From contig DAIDHS010000015.1 in assembly GCA_027451985.1 (NCBI GenBank), forward strand, positions 1 through 60,483: a stretch of DNA of 60,483 nucleotides, in the 5' to 3' direction. The notes under the pieces were generated by a model, which ran no database searches, had not been told where the DNA came from, and saw only the letters and a list, made by a program, of their open reading frames with translations. The position numbers and the translations under genes were made by a program. Origin of the DNA: Elusimicrobiota bacterium. GTDB lineage: Bacteria > Elusimicrobiota > Elusimicrobia > UBA1565 > UBA9628. The first letter of the stretch is position 1; the number at the start of each line of letters is the position of its first letter. Below, in pieces: positions 25,871 through 35,269 of the stretch.

Positions 25871-27112
25871 ATGCCCACGTTCGCCTACAAGGCCAAGGCC
25901 CGGGACGGAGCCGTCCGCCAGGGCACGCTCGACGCCGCCGAGCGCCGCGTCGCCATAGAACTCCTGCGCTCGCAGAAGATGGTGGTGCTCGAGATCGGCG
26001 AGAAAAAACCAGGATTTCTGGATACCTTGAAGAACAAGCTCAACGCGGGAGCCACGGTAAAGTCCAAGGACCTGACCATGTTCTCGCGCCAGCTCTCGAC
26101 CCTTATTGGCGCGGGTGTGCCCATTGTGCAGGGGCTCTCCATTCTGGAGACGCAGGCGCAGAACCCCGCGTTCAAGAAGATCATCGGCGCGGTGCGTACG
26201 GACATTGAGGGCGGGCTCTCCATCACGGAGGCCATGAAGAAGCACCCCGGCGCTTTCCCGGAGCTCTACACCTCCATGGTCAAGGCTGGCGAGCTGGGCG
26301 GCATCCTGGACACTATTTTGGAGCGCCTTACGCTCTACTTGGAGAATTCCGAAGCCCTGAGGGCCAAGGTCAAATCCGCGCTGATGTACCCGGCCGTGGT
26401 GCTCTCCATCTGCGCCTTGGTGACGGTTTTCCTATTGACCTTCGTCGTGCCGACCTTCAAGACCATCTTCTCGGCGTTCGGTGGCAAGCTGCCCATGCCG
26501 ACGCAGGTCCTTTTGGGAATTTCGGCCTTCCTGCGCACTTATTGGTACGCCTGGGTGCCCATCCCCATCGGTATCGGCTATGGCTGCAAGCGCTTTTACA
26601 AGACATCTGCGGGCAAGAAGCGTGTGGATGCCTGGATTTTAAAGGCGCCCCTGTTCGGGCCCATCATGACCAAGGTCGCCATCGCCAAGCTTACCCGCAC
26701 CCTAGGCACTCTCATAAAATCGGGCGTGCCCATCATGCAGGGCCTGGAGACCGCCGCAGCCACGGCTGGCAACGTGGTCGTCGCGGAGGCGATTTTGTCC
26801 AGCCGCGAGTCGGTCCGCGAGGGCGGCAAGCTGACTGATCCCTTGAAGAAGTCGGGTATTTTCCCCAACATGGTGACCTCCATGATCTCGGTCGGCGAGG
26901 AGACGGGAAGTTTGGACGCGATGCTGGGCAAGATCGCGGATTTCTACGACATGGAGGTCGACGCCGCGGTCAAGGGTCTGACCTCCATGATTGAGCCCAT
27001 CGTCATCGTCATCATGGGCGTCATCGTCGGCTCCATCGTCATCGCGATGTTCATGCCCATCTTTGATCTGGGTCAGCTGGCCTCGAATATGGGTAACTCT
27101 AAGCACCACTAA
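25871..27112 (+). CDS. pilC: Type IV pilus inner-membrane platform protein
   Basis: A 413-residue PilC/GspF protein. It opens with M-P-T-F-A-Y-K-A, as most PilC do. Two T2SF domains (about 68-190 and 270-395) contain the F-x-R-Q-L-S-T-L-I-x-A-G-V-P motif and its echo T-R-T-L-G-T-L-I-K-S-G-V-P. Three hydrophobic segments match the family topology. It couples the PilB and PilT ATPases to pilin movement. It starts five bases after pilT. Its last 14 bases overlap the 3' end of the convergent uvrC. Confidence 0.94.
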   Translation: MPTFAYKAKARDGAVRQGTLDAAERRVAIELLRSQKMVVLEIGEKKPGFLDTLKNKLNAGATVKSKDLTMFSRQLSTLIGAGVPIVQGLSILETQAQNPAFKKIIGAVRTDIEGGLSITEAMKKHPGAFPELYTSMVKAGELGGILDTILERLTLYLENSEALRAKVKSALMYPAVVLSICALVTVFLLTFVVPTFKTIFSAFGGKLPMPTQVLLGISAFLRTYWYAWVPIPIGIGYGCKRFYKTSAGKKRVDAWILKAPLFGPIMTKVAIAKLTRTLGTLIKSGVPIMQGLETAAATAGNVVVAEAILSSRESVREGGKLTDPLKKSGIFPNMVTSMISVGEETGSLDAMLGKIADFYDMEVDAAVKGLTSMIEPIVIVIMGVIVGSIVIAMFMPIFDLGQLASNMGNSKHH

Positions 27113-28388
27113 AGATTCCCTTTCCGCGCAAATACCGGTTGTAGGTGATGGCGAAGCGGTGCGCCTCGTCTCTGAGGTGCTGGAGCATGCGCAGGGCCGG
27201 CCGTCGGCGCTCCAAGAGAATGGAGCGCGAACGTCCGGGCACAAAAACCTCCTCCAGGCGTTTGGCCAAAGACGCGACGGGAATGTCCAGCCCCAGTTTG
27301 TCCAAGGCCGCCTTGGCCGCGCCCAACTGGCCTTTGCCGCCGTCGATGAGAATCAAGTCCGGCATGTCTTCGCGGCTGCGCCGGCGGTAGCGGCGAAAGA
27401 CCGCTTCAGCCATGGACTTGAAGTCATCGATGCCTGCGGTTTCGCGAATCTTGAAGCGCCGGTAGTGGCTCTTGTTGGGCCGCCCACCCGTGAAGCACAC
27501 CATGGAGGCCACAGTGAAGCGTCCTTGGAAATGGGAAATGTCGAAGCATTCGATGTGGAAGGGGGGTTTGGCCAGGGCCAGCGCGTCTTTTAAGTCCGTC
27601 ACGGCTTGGGATTCCAGCAGAGGCGCGGCGATGTCCTCGGCGGAGAGGGCCTTCAAGCGCACGCGCTCGTCCATTTGAGCGATGGCCGAGAGGTTGTCGC
27701 GAAAGGCCGCGGCGCGCTCATATTCCAGCGCAGACGAGGCCCGTGTCATCTCTTCTTCGAGCTTATCGCGCAGCGCGCCGTAGTCACCCTGGAAGAACAA
27801 AAGCGCGCGTTCGGCCACGGCGCGGTAGTTCGCGCGGCTGATTTTGCCAGCGCAAGGCGCCGGGCACTGGCCGGTGTGGTAGTAGAGGCAGGAGTGAATT
27901 TTGCGCTCGGCCAAGGGCTTTTCCAGGCTGAACTCCCAGCGGCAGGGGCGCAGCGGGAAGAGCCGGCTTCTCCAGAGATAGCGCAGCAGGCTTTTGATGG
28001 AGGCGGCTTTCGGGTAGGGGCCGAAGTAGGCGCTTTTGTCCTTTGTCTTGCGCCGGGTCATCAAAAGGCGCGGGAAGTCCTCACCCAACGTGATTTTAAC
28101 CCACGGGTACGACTTGTCGTCCTTCCACATCGAGTTGAAGAAGGGCTGCTTCTCGCGGATGAGCTTGCGCTCCAGAAGAAGGGCTTCTCGCTCGGAGGCG
28201 CAAGGAATATAGTCGATGGCGCGGATTAAGGGCGTCAACGCCGAGTTCTTGAGATCGGTCTTGGAAGGGTTGAAGTACTGGGAGACACGCTTGGATAAGT
28301 CCACGGCCTTGCCGATGTAAATGATGTCTCCGGCCGCGTCGCGCATAAGGTAGACCCCGCAGGCGTGCGGGAGGTGTGAGAGGTCCAT
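27099..28388 (-). CDS. uvrC: UvrC-like nuclease, C-terminally short
   Basis: A 429-residue excinuclease subunit C homologue. The GIY-YIG domain (about 10-90; G-V-Y-L-M and I-I-Y-I-G-K-A), a cysteine cluster, the UVR region for UvrB contact (about 200-235), and the RNase-H-like nuclease core (C-F-D-I-S-H, L-I-L-I-D-G-G-K-G-Q-L, D-E-A-H-R-F-A) are all present. The tandem helix-hairpin-helix DNA-binding tail of full UvrC (about 600 residues) is missing: the protein stops a dozen residues after D-E-A-H-R, inside the end of convergent pilC. Either a natural short form or a truncation by deletion. TATAAT lies six bases before the ATG. Confidence 0.88.
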   Translation of the reverse strand: MDLSHLPHACGVYLMRDAAGDIIYIGKAVDLSKRVSQYFNPSKTDLKNSALTPLIRAIDYIPCASEREALLLERKLIREKQPFFNSMWKDDKSYPWVKITLGEDFPRLLMTRRKTKDKSAYFGPYPKAASIKSLLRYLWRSRLFPLRPCRWEFSLEKPLAERKIHSCLYYHTGQCPAPCAGKISRANYRAVAERALLFFQGDYGALRDKLEEEMTRASSALEYERAAAFRDNLSAIAQMDERVRLKALSAEDIAAPLLESQAVTDLKDALALAKPPFHIECFDISHFQGRFTVASMVCFTGGRPNKSHYRRFKIRETAGIDDFKSMAEAVFRRYRRRSREDMPDLILIDGGKGQLGAAKAALDKLGLDIPVASLAKRLEEVFVPGRSRSILLERRRPALRMLQHLRDEAHRFAITYNRYLRGKGIFSGA

Positions 28389-28868: not shown

Positions 28869-29621
28869 ATGCCGGAAACCCAAGCCAAAGACACCAAGAA
28901 AGAGGCGCCCGCCGTCACCGATTTGCGTGAGCGCGGCCGCGCGGCTGACGGCTCGGTCTCCTTTTCCGATCGCCGGCTCTTTATGAGCTTCTCGGCCTTC
29001 GGCGGGGCGCGGGACTTCGCACCCCTCATAAAAGCCCTCGAGCCCGCCAAGATGCCCGCCGCGCTCTATGCCGACCTGCACGACCCGCGCGGCGCGGGCC
29101 TTCTGGCTATGAGCGAGGATCCGTCCTTTTTCGTCGGCGAACTGCGCAAGTTCTTCAACGCGGGGCCCTTCGCCGATTTGGAATTAAAGCCCGCGTACTC
29201 GATGGCCGGCCGGACCTACGCGCTCGGTCACGAGCCGAATCTGGACGACTGGCTCGTCGATCGTCCGCGCCGCGTGGTCTTGGATCCGGAGTGGCCCTGG
29301 GCGGTGTGGTATCCGCTGCGCCGCGCGGGCGCCTTCGCGGCCCTGCCAGTGGAAGAGCAGACCAAGATGCTGCGCGAGCACGGCGCCATCGGCCACGCCT
29401 TCGGCAACGCGGGGCTGGGCAAGGACATCCGCTTGGACTGCCACGGCATCGACCCGGCCGACAATGATTTTATCATCGGGCTTTTGGGCCGGGAGCTTCA
29501 CCCTCTGTCCGCTTTGGTCGCCGCCATGCGCAAGACCAAGCAGACCTCAGGCTACATCGAAAAGATGGGCCCCTTTTTCATCGGCAAGGCCGTGTGGCAG
29601 TCCAAGGAGAAACCCTCATGA
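28869..29621 (+). CDS. Chlorite-dismutase/HemQ-family haem protein
   Basis: A 250-residue protein whose C-terminal half matches the chlorite dismutase/coproheme decarboxylase family pattern: W-Y-P-L-R-R, then [10 protein letters not shown]171-G-A-I-G (H171 as candidate proximal haem ligand), a G-I-D-P-A-D-N-D-F strand, and the closing [10 protein letters not shown][10 protein letters not shown]. The first 30 residues are a charged extension. HemQ would decarboxylate coproheme to haem b. The ATG is preceded directly by a -10-like hexamer. It overlaps the next gene by four bases and precedes a DUF420 gene, supporting a haem theme. The catalytic Tyr/Arg identity is not certain. Confidence 0.7.
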
Positions 29622-30028
29622 GCGAGAACCGCACTTTCAAAGTCTCGATGTCGGAACGATGCTTCCGCTTTAAGCCCGACGCCCTGGGCAACCACGCCCC
29701 GCCCAAGCCCGGCGTCTACGAATTCGTGACTTTCCATCCGGACGGCAAGCCGGAGGTTCTTTTTGTAGGCGCGGCCACGGGGCCGCAGACCGTGCAGGAC
29801 GCGCTGGCCGCGCACCTGCAGGGCCAGGCCAAGCCCGGATCGACCGAGCTTTTCGCCGCGGCCAAGGACGTTTATTTCGACTACGTGGCCGACGCGGACA
29901 TTTCCTCCATCGAGGACTTGAAGGACATCGCGGCGGCTTTGGTGCAGAAGCACAAGCCCAAGTTCAATCCCGGAGGGCCCGCCTTCACCGGCCGCTACGC
30001 TGCGGTCGCGGTCGAGGAAGTCGACTAG
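29618..30028 (+). CDS. Small protein with a GIY-YIG-like pattern
   Basis: A 136-residue protein co-translated with the HemQ-like gene (ATGA overlap). Its central part resembles a degenerate GIY-YIG fold: P-G-V-Y-E-F, a 14-residue gap, L-F-V-G-A-A, a helix with L-A-A-H-L-Q-G, a strand V-Y-F-D-Y-V, an acidic helix and a closing K-P-K-F-N. The catalytic arginine expected in the first helix is not seen, so nuclease activity is doubtful. I know of no link between such folds and haem synthesis; function unknown. The pattern match is visual only. Confidence 0.6.
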   Translation: MSENRTFKVSMSERCFRFKPDALGNHAPPKPGVYEFVTFHPDGKPEVLFVGAATGPQTVQDALAAHLQGQAKPGSTELFAAAKDVYFDYVADADISSIEDLKDIAAALVQKHKPKFNPGGPAFTGRYAAVAVEEVD

Positions 30029-30037
30029 CCGGCGGCC

Positions 30038-30445
30038 GTGAGCCTCTCGGCGGTCCCTTTCTTCAACGCGTGCTTGAACGCCTCCGCGGGCGTCCTGCTT
30101 GTCCTCGGCTATGTTTTCGTCAAGCGCGGACGGTTTTTCGCCCACAAGGTGTGCATGCTCTCGGCCCTGGGCTGTTCGGCGGTTTTCCTGGCGGGCTACC
30201 TCTACTATCACTTCCGTGCGGGCGTGGTCTATTACCACGGCGCTTGGCGCGCGGCTTACTTTTCGATTTTAGGCACGCACACCGTGCTGGCGGCCATCAT
30301 CGCGCCCTTGGCGATTTACACCGCGTCCTTGGCTCTGCGCGGGCGATTTGTCCAGCACAAGAGGTGGGCTAAGCGCGCGCTGCCAATCTGGCTCTACGTC
30401 TCCGTGACCGGCGTCGTGATTTACGCGATGCTCTTCGGGATTTAG
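30038..30445 (+). CDS. DUF420-family membrane protein
   Basis: A 135-residue protein with four predicted transmembrane helices and conserved histidines: F-F-A-H-K near residue 33, Y-Y-H-F, Y-Y-H-G, G-T-H-T and F-V-Q-H-K. This fits the DUF420 (YozB/CtaM) family, which contains a factor needed for haem-A-type oxidase maturation in Staphylococcus. A GTG start ten bases after the previous stop keeps it in the HemQ-like operon. Haem or oxidase assembly is the reasonable inference, but no oxidase genes are in the window. Confidence 0.8.
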   Translation: MSLSAVPFFNACLNASAGVLLVLGYVFVKRGRFFAHKVCMLSALGCSAVFLAGYLYYHFRAGVVYYHGAWRAAYFSILGTHTVLAAIIAPLAIYTASLALRGRFVQHKRWAKRALPIWLYVSVTGVVIYAMLFGI

Positions 30446-30449
30446 AACC

Positions 30450-30770
30450 CTAGACGCTAAATGAGGTCCCGCAGGAGCAGGTGCTCTTGGCGTGCGGGTT
30501 TTGGATGCGAAAGCCCGCTTCCATCAAGGACTCAAAGTAGTCCACTTGCGAGCCGCCGATGAAGAAGTCCGAGCGAGGGTCAACCACGGCCTTGGCGCCG
30601 AATCCCTCGAACACGATGTCCTCGGGCGCCACTTGGTCTACGATGTCGAACTCATAGCTCAAGCCCGAGCAGCCGCCGGTGCCGACCTTGACGCGCAGGC
30701 AGGGCGCCTGCCCTTTCTTCGAGGCCAGGTCCTTGATGCGTGCGGCGGCTTTCTCGGTGAGCGTGATCAC
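30450..30770 (-). CDS. A-type iron-sulfur carrier (IscA/ErpA family), copy 2
   Basis: A 106-residue HesB/IscA protein. The three family cysteines are present: one in G-T-G-G-C-S-G and two in the C-terminal T-C-S-C-G-T-S-F. Length is standard. It delivers Fe-S clusters to apo-proteins. Translation starts at GTG, four bases after the stop of a second, different A-type gene; the two are a tandem pair from one promoter at 31125-31154. Confidence 0.9.
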   Translation of the reverse strand: MITLTEKAAARIKDLASKKGQAPCLRVKVGTGGCSGLSYEFDIVDQVAPEDIVFEGFGAKAVVDPRSDFFIGGSQVDYFESLMEAGFRIQNPHAKSTCSCGTSFSV

Positions 30771-30774
30771 GGTG

Positions 30775-31098
30775 TTAGAACTGCTTGGATTTGCCGCAGC
30801 CGCAGGAGCCCTTCTCCAGCGGATTCTTGATGCGGAAGCCCGAACTCGTTTCGTCGTCGGCGTAATCGACGATGGCCTGATCGAGCAAGGAGACGCTGGC
30901 AGGGTCTACGACCACGTCGAAGCCCTTCTGCGGCAGGACTACGTCCTCGGGCTTCTTGTCGTCGAAGCTCAGAGAGTACTCGTAGCCGGCGCAGCCCGAG
31001 GGCTTCAAGCCCACGCGCAGACTCTTGCCGCGGAAGTTCTCGTCCGCGGACAAAAAAGATTGGACTTTCTCGACGGCTTTTTCGGTCAGCGTAAACAT
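30775..31098 (-). CDS. A-type iron-sulfur carrier (IscA/ErpA family), copy 1
   Basis: A 107-residue HesB/IscA protein. The cysteines lie in P-S-G-C-A-G-Y and G-S-C-G-C-G-K. It differs substantially from the downstream copy (for example G-C-A-G-Y against G-C-S-G-L), so the pair is an old duplication rather than a recent repeat, perhaps one IscA-like and one ErpA-like. AGGAG precedes the ATG. No iscS or iscU is nearby. Confidence 0.9.
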   Translation of the reverse strand: MFTLTEKAVEKVQSFLSADENFRGKSLRVGLKPSGCAGYEYSLSFDDKKPEDVVLPQKGFDVVVDPASVSLLDQAIVDYADDETSSGFRIKNPLEKGSCGCGKSKQF

Positions 31099-31263: not shown

Positions 31264-33975
31264 ATGAGCGAGGAAAACTTCAAAATCGAAACGGTCAATG
31301 ACGTCGAGACCGCGCGTCTGGCTTTGCGTTGGTCCCTGGAGCGCCTGCACAAGGCCACTGAGGAGCTTGCCTTGGCCAAGGACGAGCGTGACAAGGCCGT
31401 CGCCGAGTCCGGGCGGCTCTCCGAGGAGGCCGCGCGCAAGGACGCGGCCATGGCGCGTTGGAAGGAGACCATCCGACTCTGGGAATCCTCCATCAAGGAT
31501 CACAAGGCGATGGAGGAGTCTTTGCGCGAGGACCTGCGCAAGGAAATCCTGCAGGAAAAGACGATTTCCGAGAAGGAGACCCGCCGCCAGTTCGAGATGC
31601 AGATCGCGGCCTTGCAGCGCGAGCTGGCCGAGCGGGAGGCCCAAATCGGCGCCTTGAAGCGCGCCGCCATCGACGAGTCCAGGGACGCCAAAATCCATGC
31701 CGAACGCGAGGTCGAGATGCTCCTGGAGCGCCAGAACCGAGCGCTCGAGGAGGAGAAGCGCGCGTTTTTGGATCGACTGCGCGCGCAGGAAGACGAGATG
31801 CTGCGCCGCGGGCGTCAAGCCGCGGCCGCAGAGCAAAAGGCGCTCGAAGATCGCCGTGCCGCCTTGGAGTCCGAGTTCGCAGCCCGGCGCGCGGCCAGCG
31901 AGGAAGATTTCCGCCGCCGCGCGGCCGAAGAGGCGGCGCGCTTGGACGAGCGCCTGCGCGCCGAGCGCCAGAGAGACGCCCACATTTTGAAGGACAAGGA
32001 GGCCGCGCTTGAGGCCCAGGCGCGCGAGCAGACCGAGCGCCTCTCCGAGCGATACGCCGCGTTGGAAAAGGAGTGCCGCGCGCGCTTCGAGGCCATGGAG
32101 CGCGATCTCATGGCCGAGAAGGACAAGCGTCTGGCGGAGGAGAGGATCATCCTCCAGCGCGCCTTCGCGGACAAGGAAAAAGATTTGGAGCGCGCGGCGG
32201 CCTCCTCCGCCGCAGCCGCCATCGAGCGCGAGAAGGCGCTTTGGACCGAGCACCAGGAGCGCATCGCCCGCTCCCTGGCCGAGGCGCGCGAGCAGATGCT
32301 TTCCGAGCGCCGGCAGTTCGAGCAGGATTTGGAGGCCAAGAGAAAGGAGTTGGAGGCCCAAGCGGCCGCGTCCTTGGCCGAAAGGGAGCGCGCGCTGGCC
32401 CAGTCCCATGAGGAGCGTTTGGCCGAGGTCCGCGCGCAGTTCGCCGCGCAAATCGAGGCCGAGAAAAAGAGCGCCGCGACCGATAACGAGCGGCGCGAGG
32501 CGCGCCTGAGGGAGGAGCTCTCCGAGCGGCAGCATCGCTGGCTCTTGGAAAAGGAGCGCGCGCACGAGGAATTGCGCCGCGAGCTGGCCGAAAAGAGCTT
32601 GCGCGATTCCTCCGAGTTGGAAGGGCGTCTTGACGAGCGCAGAAAAACTTTGGAGGAGGAGGCGCGACGTCGGCTCGCCCAGGACCTGGAGACTTTACGG
32701 GCGCGCTTCGGGCACCATGAGCGGGAGCTTGAAGGCCGCATGCGCTCCTGGCAGATGCAGACCGAGGAGCAGTTTCGTCGCGAGAAAGCCGAGTGGCTCG
32801 CCGCGGCCGAGAAAGATTTACTCTCGCGCCGCGCGGAGTTGGAGCGCCTGCGCGCGGACAATGAGGCCCGCGTGCAGGAGTCGGCACAGAAGCTCGAGGC
32901 CGCGCGGGCGCAGAAGGAGAAAATCGCACGCGACGAGCTCGCCCTGCGCGAGGCCAAGCTAGAGGAGGAGGTGGGCCGCCGCGAGGATTTGGCGCGCGCG
33001 CGCTACGAGGATCTATTGGCCAAGGAAAAAGCGGCCATGGAGAAACGCTTGGCCGAGCGGGAGGAGTCTCTGCGTCAGAGGCTCGACTCCGACCGCTCGG
33101 CCTCGGAGCGCGACTTGGCGCGGCGCATGCAGGACTTCACGCGCTCCCTGGAGGCCAAGAGCGCGCAGAGGGAACAGGAGCTGCGCAACGTCGTCGAAGG
33201 CCGCCTGGCGGATCTTTCGCGCACCGAGGCGCAGCTGCGGGAATCCTGGGCGGCCAAGGAAGCGCAGATGCAAAAGGCCTTCGCCGAGCGCGAATCGCGC
33301 TGGCTGGCCTCGCAAAACGAGGTGCTGGCCCGCGAGCGCGCGCTTCTGGAGCAGGAGTGGGCGCGGGAGACCGGGCAGCGCCGCGCGCGCTTCGAGGAGC
33401 AGCTCCAGGAGCGGCAGAAGGCCTTGGAGCTCAAGGCCGCGGAGCTGGAGCGCCGCATGCAGGAGCAATGGAACCAGCGGGAAGACGCCTGGAATCGCAC
33501 CAAGCGCGAGGCTCTGGACCTCGAGATCGCGTCCTTGCGCGCGGACTTCGCGGCCAAGGAAAAAGCGCTGGAGGAGCACTTAAAGGAGCGCGAAAAGGCC
33601 GTCGCCCTGCGCAAGAGGGAGTTGGAGGACGATTTTGAGGCCAAGGCGCGCGCCGCGGCCTCTGAGCTCGCGCTTGAAAAAGAGGCCCTGCGGGCCCAGC
33701 ACGAGCGGCGCCTGCGCGAAGTCGAGGCCGAGAAGCAGAAGGCTGGCGCTTGGCTCATGCAGAAGGAGCAGGAGTTGAGCGACAATTTCCAGAAGGTCGA
33801 GCAGGAGCTGCGCAACGAGCTGCACGCCGCGCGTCTGGAGCAGGCAGCGGAGTACGACGAGAAGGTTCGCCGCCTGGCCGAGGAGCGCCTGCTCCTGCAG
33901 AAGGAACACGAGCAAAAACTGCGCGATTTGGAGGCGCGCTACCAGAAAAACGCGGGCCAAAAAGGCGCGGCCTAG
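31264..33975 (+). CDS. Giant coiled-coil protein
   Basis: A 903-residue protein that is almost wholly predicted coiled coil from about residue 15 to the end, extremely rich in Glu, Arg, Ala, Leu and Lys, with no signal peptide or membrane segment and almost no Pro, Gly or Cys. Tryptophans recur at intervals (for example R-W-L-L-E-K, E-W-L-A-A-A, R-W-L-A-S-Q, A-W-N-R-T-K), hinting at a quasi-repeat. It is probably a cytoplasmic filament- or scaffold-like protein; intermediate-filament-like and SMC-like proteins are comparisons, but no ATPase head exists. No clear promoter or ribosome-binding site was found near the ATG. Family not recognised. Confidence 0.75.
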   Translation: MSEENFKIETVNDVETARLALRWSLERLHKATEELALAKDERDKAVAESGRLSEEAARKDAAMARWKETIRLWESSIKDHKAMEESLREDLRKEILQEKTISEKETRRQFEMQIAALQRELAEREAQIGALKRAAIDESRDAKIHAEREVEMLLERQNRALEEEKRAFLDRLRAQEDEMLRRGRQAAAAEQKALEDRRAALESEFAARRAASEEDFRRRAAEEAARLDERLRAERQRDAHILKDKEAALEAQAREQTERLSERYAALEKECRARFEAMERDLMAEKDKRLAEERIILQRAFADKEKDLERAAASSAAAAIEREKALWTEHQERIARSLAEAREQMLSERRQFEQDLEAKRKELEAQAAASLAERERALAQSHEERLAEVRAQFAAQIEAEKKSAATDNERREARLREELSERQHRWLLEKERAHEELRRELAEKSLRDSSELEGRLDERRKTLEEEARRRLAQDLETLRARFGHHERELEGRMRSWQMQTEEQFRREKAEWLAAAEKDLLSRRAELERLRADNEARVQESAQKLEAARAQKEKIARDELALREAKLEEEVGRREDLARARYEDLLAKEKAAMEKRLAEREESLRQRLDSDRSASERDLARRMQDFTRSLEAKSAQREQELRNVVEGRLADLSRTEAQLRESWAAKEAQMQKAFAERESRWLASQNEVLARERALLEQEWARETGQRRARFEEQLQERQKALELKAAELERRMQEQWNQREDAWNRTKREALDLEIASLRADFAAKEKALEEHLKEREKAVALRKRELEDDFEAKARAAASELALEKEALRAQHERRLREVEAEKQKAGAWLMQKEQELSDNFQKVEQELRNELHAARLEQAAEYDEKVRRLAEERLLLQKEHEQKLRDLEARYQKNAGQKGAA

Positions 33976-34001: not shown

Positions 34002-34730
34002 ATGGGTCACATTGGCCTGGGAGCCGCCTTCGTCGCCGGAGTCGCCTCGTTTCTCTCGCCCTGCGTCCTGCCGCTTATTCCCGGATATCTTTCGCTCATG
34101 TCGGGCCTGTCCCTGGAAGACCTCTCCAGCGGCGCCGGCCGCGGCGAGGTCGCGGCCAAGGCGGGGCTGGGTTCGATTTTCTTCGTGCTGGGCTTCTCGC
34201 TGGTCTTCACTTTGCTGGGCGCCTCGGCGTCCAGCGTCGGCGGCTTTCTGGCTTCGGCCCTGCCCGCCCTGGACAAAATCGCGGGCGCGCTCATCGTGCT
34301 TTTCGGCCTGCACATCATGGGCGTCTTGCCCATCAAGTGGCTTTACTATGAGCGTCGCTTCTCCTCGCGCGGCGTCTCGCCGGGCTACGTAGGCTCCTTC
34401 GTGATGGGCCTGGCCTTCGCCTTCGGCTGGACGCCCTGCATCGGCCCAATTCTTGGCGCCATCCTGGCCCTGGCCGCGACCCAGAAGACCGCGGCGGAGG
34501 GGATGATGCTTTTGGCCGTCTACTCCCTGGGCCTTGGCGTGCCCTTCGTCGCCGCGGCGTTCGGCTTAAACGCCTTCCTGCAGTTCTTCTCCCGCTACAA
34601 GCGCTACATCCGCTGGGGCGAAACTTTGGCCGGCGCCTTCCTGGTCTTCATGGGCGTGCTGGTCTTCACCCGGCATCTGGGCCTCATCAGCCGCTATCTC
34701 CCGCAGTCGTTTTTCCGCTTCGCCCTATGA
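34002..34730 (+). CDS. ccdA: CcdA-type thiol transporter
   Basis: A 242-residue membrane protein with six predicted helices in two inverted halves. The reactive cysteines are C21 in F-L-S-P-C-V-L-P and the partner near residue 145 in W-T-P-C-I-G-P, the standard CcdA/DsbD pair. It moves electrons from cytoplasmic thioredoxin to periplasmic thioredoxin-like proteins, here the TlpA-like product of the next gene, with which it overlaps (ATGA). It may serve maturation of the cytochrome c at 319-834. Confidence 0.93.
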   Translation: MGHIGLGAAFVAGVASFLSPCVLPLIPGYLSLMSGLSLEDLSSGAGRGEVAAKAGLGSIFFVLGFSLVFTLLGASASSVGGFLASALPALDKIAGALIVLFGLHIMGVLPIKWLYYERRFSSRGVSPGYVGSFVMGLAFAFGWTPCIGPILGAILALAATQKTAAEGMMLLAVYSLGLGVPFVAAAFGLNAFLQFFSRYKRYIRWGETLAGAFLVFMGVLVFTRHLGLISRYLPQSFFRFAL

Positions 34731-35269
34731 GCTTTCAGCCCAGGAGTTCTTCGGGTGGCAAAAAGCTGTTCGTCATTCTGGGGCTGGCCGCCTTGGCCGC
34801 CGTGCTCTACGCGTTTATTCCGCCCAGCACGTGGCGCGCGCAAAGCTCGGCTCCCATCGAAGCGCCCAACTTCACCCTGACCGACATCAGCGGGCGCCGG
34901 GTGTCTTTGTCCCAGTACCGCGGCCGTGTGGTCTTCATCGATTTCTGGGCGACGTGGTGCGGCCCCTGCCAGGAGGAGATTCCGGACCTCATAACGGTCT
35001 ACAACCGCTTCAAGGGCCAGGGTTTCGTCATTCTAGGCGTTGCCATGGATTCGCTCGGAGCCGCGGCCGTGGTGCCCTTCGTCAAGCAGGCTCACATTCC
35101 TTACCCCATTCTTCTCGCCAACGGCGGCGAGCCGCCGGCAGGCTACCCCGTCCCCGGCTTCCCCACGGGTTTCCTGATCGACGCCAAGGGCCGCATGGTG
35201 GCGCGCTATCTGGGCCCGCAGCCGGCCGACGAGCTTTCCCAGGATGTCGAGGCCGCGCTCAAGGATTAG
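34727..35269 (+). CDS. TlpA/ResA-like membrane-anchored thioredoxin
   Basis: A 180-residue periplasmic thioredoxin. An N-terminal anchor at about residues 12-30 precedes a TlpA/ResA fold with W77-C78-G-P-C81, a central insert, and the cis-proline loop V-P-G-F-P-T-G-F. It should be reduced by CcdA and reduce apocytochrome c or other disulfides. It overlaps ccdA upstream. The next gene starts inside its last 26 bases in another frame. Confidence 0.92.
   Translation: MSFQPRSSSGGKKLFVILGLAALAAVLYAFIPPSTWRAQSSAPIEAPNFTLTDISGRRVSLSQYRGRVVFIDFWATWCGPCQEEIPDLITVYNRFKGQGFVILGVAMDSLGAAAVVPFVKQAHIPYPILLANGGEPPAGYPVPGFPTGFLIDAKGRMVARYLGPQPADELSQDVEAALKD

Follow-up and report, generated by a model that had tools for sequence, protein, structure and literature searches.

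What brings a small protein with a degenerate GIY-YIG pattern, and with no expected role in haem metabolism, into an overlapping gene pair with a member of the chlorite dismutase (Cld) family? The question is raised by a stretch of 60,483 nucleotides (the window), which is contig C15 of G000, a 95% complete MAG of the Elusimicrobiota. A first-pass annotation of its letters had described three overlapping or closely spaced genes, all of which were found in place.

28869..29621, + strand: divergent Cld-family protein, 250 aa (PF06778, AF2 model, Tyr/His alignment)
29618..30028, + strand: giy, small predicted pseudo-nuclease with a UvrC-type GIY-YIG fold, 136 aa (AF2, Foldseek BFVD, hhalign)
30038..30445, + strand: DUF420 membrane protein of the CtaM/YozB family, putatively an assembly factor for haem-copper oxidases (PF04238)

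The name giy is used here for the small GIY-YIG-like protein at positions 29618-30028 and for its gene.

Conservation of the gene order

The Cld-like reading frame runs from an ATG at 28869 to a TGA at 29619-29621, and giy starts with the ATG at 29618 and ends at 30028, the sequence ATGA representing a 4-nt overlap with the Cld stop codon. The DUF420 frame has a GTG start at 30038 and ends at 30445. Homologues of giy are present in 38 of the 295 Elusimicrobiota genomes that were screened throughout the phylum, and the frame is therefore not a product of chance. Cld is located directly upstream of giy in 27 genomes with a readable junction, 14 with the 4-nt overlap and the others with genes 1 to 24 nt apart, in agreement with the proposed translational coupling; a 28th adjacent pair is found in G288, where giy is cut by the contig end. 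These 28 genomes span two families of one order, and the adjacency is retained over both at about 50-60% protein identity. DUF420 follows giy at 16 of the 27 readable junctions, all of them in the family of the window. A lack of conservation in relatives had been named as grounds for abandoning the idea of a trio, and the gene order withstood this test.

A probable divergent coproheme decarboxylase

The first gene had been assigned to the HemQ/Cld family, and the Pfam profile Chlor_dismutase (PF06778) matches its product with an E value of 3e-12, albeit in the C-terminal half only. The AlphaFold (AF2) model (pLDDT 78.5) has the alpha+beta barrel of the family, and in Foldseek searches coproheme decarboxylases ranked first (4wws, 5loq, and 6fxj; E about 1e-12, TM 0.61-0.66). 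Y148 and H171 are invariant in the alignment of the Cld-like family and align with the catalytic Tyr and the proximal His of the coproheme decarboxylase (ChdC) from Listeria. The score for the NCBIfam HemQ equivalog is 29 bits against a cut-off of 253; these models were built on other ChdC clades, and the low value therefore suits a divergent member and is no argument against the function. The distal Gln of the firmicute enzymes is replaced, with the invariant residues D186 and R188 on the same strand and insertions adjoining. Profile alignment places D186 at the distal position, and R188 lies on the strand that would carry the distal Arg of chlorite dismutases; hhalign comparison with other Cld-family proteins of the phylum singled out neither as the distal residue.

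The invariant R188 and the restriction of the Pfam match to the C-terminal half might be taken to indicate a genuine chlorite dismutase or some other peroxidase. We regard this as improbable, since the ChdC tyrosine, whose position is occupied by Ile in chlorite dismutases (PMC7611857), is invariant here, ChdC structures are the best Foldseek matches, and G000 needs a coproheme decarboxylase, of which no other was found there. The Cld-like protein is thus most likely a divergent ChdC (HemQ), as judged from its sequence, its predicted structure, and the pathway.

The pathway context of this enzyme was surveyed in 51 genomes. HemE and HemY are encoded in tandem in G000, HemF was found in none of the 51 genomes, and a true HemN was detected exclusively in G171, a genome without Cld; the HemN-like proteins of G000 scored below the threshold. 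With HemE and HemY present and HemF and true HemN absent, only the coproporphyrin route is therefore open to G000, and nearly all genomes of the survey must accordingly pass through coproporphyrin. The divergent Cld is the sole known coproheme decarboxylase found in G000, which shows the context expected of ChdC, i.e., HemE and CgoX without HemN or HemF. The siroheme (Ahb) route was considered for G000 and rejected on the basis of an AhbD-profile search, whose best match was a TIGR04053 protein, and of the genome's HemE and HemY.

AhbD is a known alternative for the ChdC step (PMC7242693). Genus g3 and G277, both without Cld, have a hemE-hemH-hemY operon whose first gene encodes an AhbD-like radical SAM protein, which is consistent with a replacement of ChdC by this protein, with matches in the Cld-less relatives that lie below the curated cut-off. 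Operons with genes for an AhbD-like radical SAM protein, hemE, hemH, and hemY were read at three loci of Cld-less relatives (L171, L172, and L175), two of which also contain hemC. Four further genomes (G182, G229, G273, and G283) possess HemE and HemH, but the search for known enzymes of the last step drew a blank in them; an additional last-step enzyme may therefore exist.

A short CbiX-like protein as a likely replacement for ferrochelatase

The first-pass annotation had advised looking for cpfC (hemH) and oxidase genes elsewhere in the genome. A COX1-type oxidase is present in G000, and ferrochelatase is absent, as no PF00762 protein (HemH/CpfC) and hence no canonical CpfC was found. Altogether, 19 genomes with a divergent Cld, G000 included, are without HemH, and 18 of these 19 encode a short protein of the CbiX family. 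Of 49 genomes tallied, 25 have HemH and no short CbiX, 18 have a short CbiX and no HemH, 3 have both, and 3 have neither; two of the last 3 are also devoid of HemE. The distribution of the short protein thus coincides almost completely with the absence of ferrochelatase. The full-length copies that were read comprise 166-179 aa, with conserved GHG and GG.H.E.EiP motifs.

L215:6004-6525: short CbiX-like chelatase of G000, contig C2
L216:5577-6077: short CbiX-like chelatase of G000, contig C22
L100:2515-3015 and L219:5743-6240: short CbiX-like chelatases

In some genomes, as observed at L219, L220, and L225, the short CbiX gene is located near hemB and hemL (a Pfam match identifies hemB in L219, whereas hemL was recognized from its sequence), and in genus g2 (L100 and L101) it lies two genes upstream of cld-giy. 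The short CbiX-like protein is likely to be a replacement ferrochelatase that would insert iron into coproporphyrin. A literature search retrieved no publication on a CbiX-type coproporphyrin ferrochelatase, and an absent ferrochelatase with a CbiX-like stand-in represents a directly testable enzyme replacement. The giy protein was dismissed as a substitute for HemH, because it occurs both with and without HemH.

A GIY-YIG fold without its catalytic residues

Neither the giy protein of the window nor its family has a match in Pfam or NCBIfam, and the GIY-YIG profile PF01541 matches neither this protein, nor 15 aligned members of the family, nor the giy sites in other loci. Its AF2 model (pLDDT 90.5) has from residue 32 onward two strands, two helices, a strand, a helix, and a strand, which is the order expected of the N-terminal domain of UvrC. 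Foldseek searches of the BFVD retrieved GIY-YIG nucleases with TM scores of up to 0.54, none below an E value of 0.001, and searches of the PDB gave chance-level matches only, with no GIY-YIG protein among the matches listed. In the hhalign comparison with UvrC N-domains of Elusimicrobiota, the giy profile reached a probability of 94.8 (E 5.5e-8), the highest probability among 50 column-shuffled control profiles being 1.9. Folding as something unrelated to GIY-YIG had been the second named ground for dropping the proposal; the model, the BFVD matches, and the profile alignment concur in the opposite, and together they show by prediction and profile that giy is homologous to GIY-YIG domains and has a UvrC-type fold.

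The position of the catalytic, metal-binding Glu of UvrC corresponds to A105 of giy and is Ala in 36, Tyr in 1, and Leu in 1 of the 38 homologues, never Glu. The position of the catalytic Arg corresponds to A62, with Arg in a single homologue and small or other residues in 37. Y34 and H66 are kept in all 38 homologues and N117 in 37, and an N-terminal motif with R17 is conserved across the giy family. The net charge of Cld-linked giy ranges from -2 to -6, that of UvrC N-domains from +2 to +8. The retained fold and the Tyr, His, and Asn positions are what an active nuclease or a nucleic-acid binder would display, but the metal-binding Glu and, with one exception, the catalytic Arg are gone, so that giy should not cut nucleic acid, and its Cld-linked forms are acidic. 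From these residues, nuclease activity is very unlikely, and the lost positions and the charge together led us to reject the nucleic-acid reading, to which we assign next to no probability. Because linked giy is acidic and UvrC N-domains are positively charged, giy probably acts on protein rather than on nucleic acid.

A UvrC protein is also encoded in the window itself (27099-28388). It has the GIY-YIG, UVR, and RNase H domains in only 429 aa; UvrC open frames of Elusimicrobiota usually comprise about 435-560 aa.

Co-occurrence of giy and Cld

A divergent Cld is encoded in 34 genomes, 31 of which also have giy, compared with 7 of the 261 others. Within the family of the window, 25 genomes contain both genes, each gene occurs alone in 1, and 7 have neither (Fisher p 1e-5, a value that ignores kinship; genomes of recent common ancestry are not independent, and at least three lineages are involved). 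Both genes are absent from genus g3, G182, and G210, and HemE remains in all of these but G210. The joint loss of giy and Cld in the family suggests a partner role of giy. In the giy tree, the linkage to Cld takes three changes, e.g., one gain and two losses. Pairwise distances of Cld and giy in 14 genomes show no correlation beyond shared phylogeny (partial r -0.14), and in these genomes giy has not changed faster than HemE (mean distances of 0.55 for giy and 0.56 for HemE).

The small protein had been proposed to be a dedicated partner. The conserved adjacency speaks for a partner, but the dedication is incomplete: giy is found beside other genes in seven genomes without a divergent Cld (G171, G204, G229, G262, G266, G277, and G283), three genomes have a divergent Cld without giy (G113, G159, and G270), and DUF420 participates in about half of the cases. 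Given these exceptions and the absence of excess coevolution, the function of giy is therefore one that we infer. The same observations, i.e., uncorrelated distances and a family that also exists away from Cld, would fit a passenger that is kept by operon structure and has no functional tie to ChdC. This is a rather improbable explanation, as a mere passenger would hardly keep its place at 50-60% protein identity over two families or disappear jointly with Cld from genomes in which HemE, except in G210, persists.

Outside the Cld lineages the neighbours of giy vary. A PPK2 polyphosphate kinase gene directly follows a divergent giy at L078:6781-8843 and L082:6322-8258, in the two genomes G229 and G283, which lack a divergent Cld. 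Elsewhere, giy lies between genes for an acetyl-CoA synthetase and an aldehyde-dehydrogenase-like protein (L041:2737-4900, L039, and L080:325-4172); in L041 and L039, a 400-aa, probably secreted protein is encoded before giy and a SCO1-like frame after it. The SCO1-like frame (SVPDFSFIDQHG...ARCHDECP) was recognized by sequence inspection at these two loci, neither of which has an adjacent Cld. This variability, the conserved pocket-type residues Y34, H66, and N117, and the family-wide motif with R17 would suit a general module for binding small ligands or proteins with lineage-specific jobs, which in the cld operon would be a regulator or sensor and not a subunit. We consider such a module unlikely: giy changes slowly, is tightly coupled to Cld, and has disappeared along with it in one family, which suggests a specific role in that family.

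Relatives of giy were found in Elusimicrobiota only, the search beyond the phylum comprising one strict-pattern scan of a genome collection, viral contigs, and plasmids; the viral contigs and plasmids searched contained none. No paper that joins a chlorite dismutase with GIY-YIG was found in the literature search.

Respiratory neighbourhood

The third gene had been recognized as DUF420, and its product matches PF04238 with an E value of 1.7e-35 over 126 residues. CtaM and Sco are oxidase assembly proteins (PMC9145763, PMC13344008). COX1 is present in 32 of the 34 genomes with a divergent Cld and in 34 of the 38 giy genomes, compared with 27 of the 257 without giy. The main rival of a ChdC accessory is accordingly a general factor for the biogenesis of haem-copper oxidases or of respiration, whose position next to ChdC would reflect nothing more than their common involvement in respiration. 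It would account for giy without Cld as well as for the genes downstream of giy, i.e., DUF420 in 16 genomes and the SCO1-like frame at two loci. Nevertheless, several genomes that possess COX1 and belong to the same family (G085, G099, G275, G182, and G210) have neither giy nor Cld, the loss of giy tracks Cld and not COX1, and the PPK2 and GNAT acetyltransferase contexts of giy have no oxidase gene nearby, which leaves a general factor as a candidate of perhaps one-in-four standing.

Beyond the trio, tandem genes for A-type iron-sulphur carriers occupy positions 30450-31098 on the opposite strand, and they are located downstream of cld-giy-DUF420 in many relatives as well. They are followed by a Glu/Arg/Ala-rich protein of 903 residues (31264-33975), probably a coiled coil, without a Pfam match, and by a CcdA/DsbD-like membrane protein and a thioredoxin-like protein (34002-35269), a pair of the cytochrome c maturation type.

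Proposed role of the locus

Overall, we hold with slightly better than even confidence that the locus combines the final reaction of haem synthesis via coproporphyrin (ChdC) with two respiration-linked accessories, one of which, giy, would be a repurposed fold. As ChdC, the divergent Cld would convert coproheme into haem b with peroxide, a step for which the indirect support is good. The acidic giy fold might work via protein contacts, most likely as a ChdC accessory that is produced in step with the enzyme through translational coupling, and it could either assist ChdC or pass haem to oxidase biogenesis on the DUF420/CtaM side. In Staphylococcus aureus, ChdC interacts with CpfC and IsdG (PMC10991733). 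The more specific scenario of a dead GIY-YIG domain that has come to serve the terminal haem enzyme as an accessory, in a pathway where a short CbiX-type chelatase replaces ferrochelatase, is put forward tentatively, at somewhat less than even odds. Conserved and coupled to ChdC, giy is a concrete candidate for the handover of reactive porphyrins between soluble enzymes and, if this is true, a nuclease fold turned to a role without nucleic acid.

Comparison with known systems

With ChdC/HemQ of Listeria (lmo2113), Geobacillus, and Corynebacterium, the Cld-like protein shares the fold, the proximal His, the catalytic Tyr, and the role expected from the pathway; it differs by an identity of only about 20%, the replaced distal Gln, the giy gene next to its own, and the many genomes without HemH. 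AhbD performs the same step as ChdC, but is an unrelated, oxygen-independent radical SAM enzyme. The N-terminal GIY-YIG domain of UvrC resembles giy in the order of strands and helices, the GVY and YVG-like motifs, and the terminal Asn, whereas giy is acidic, stands alone, lacks the catalytic Arg and Glu, and bears an additional strand at its N-terminus, in which the motif S-E-R-C-F-R-F-K-P is found. The DUF420 protein of the window corresponds to CtaM/YozB in its Pfam family, its size, and the haem-copper oxidase in the same genome, but unlike the CtaM/YozB pattern it is encoded beside ChdC and giy instead of oxidase genes.
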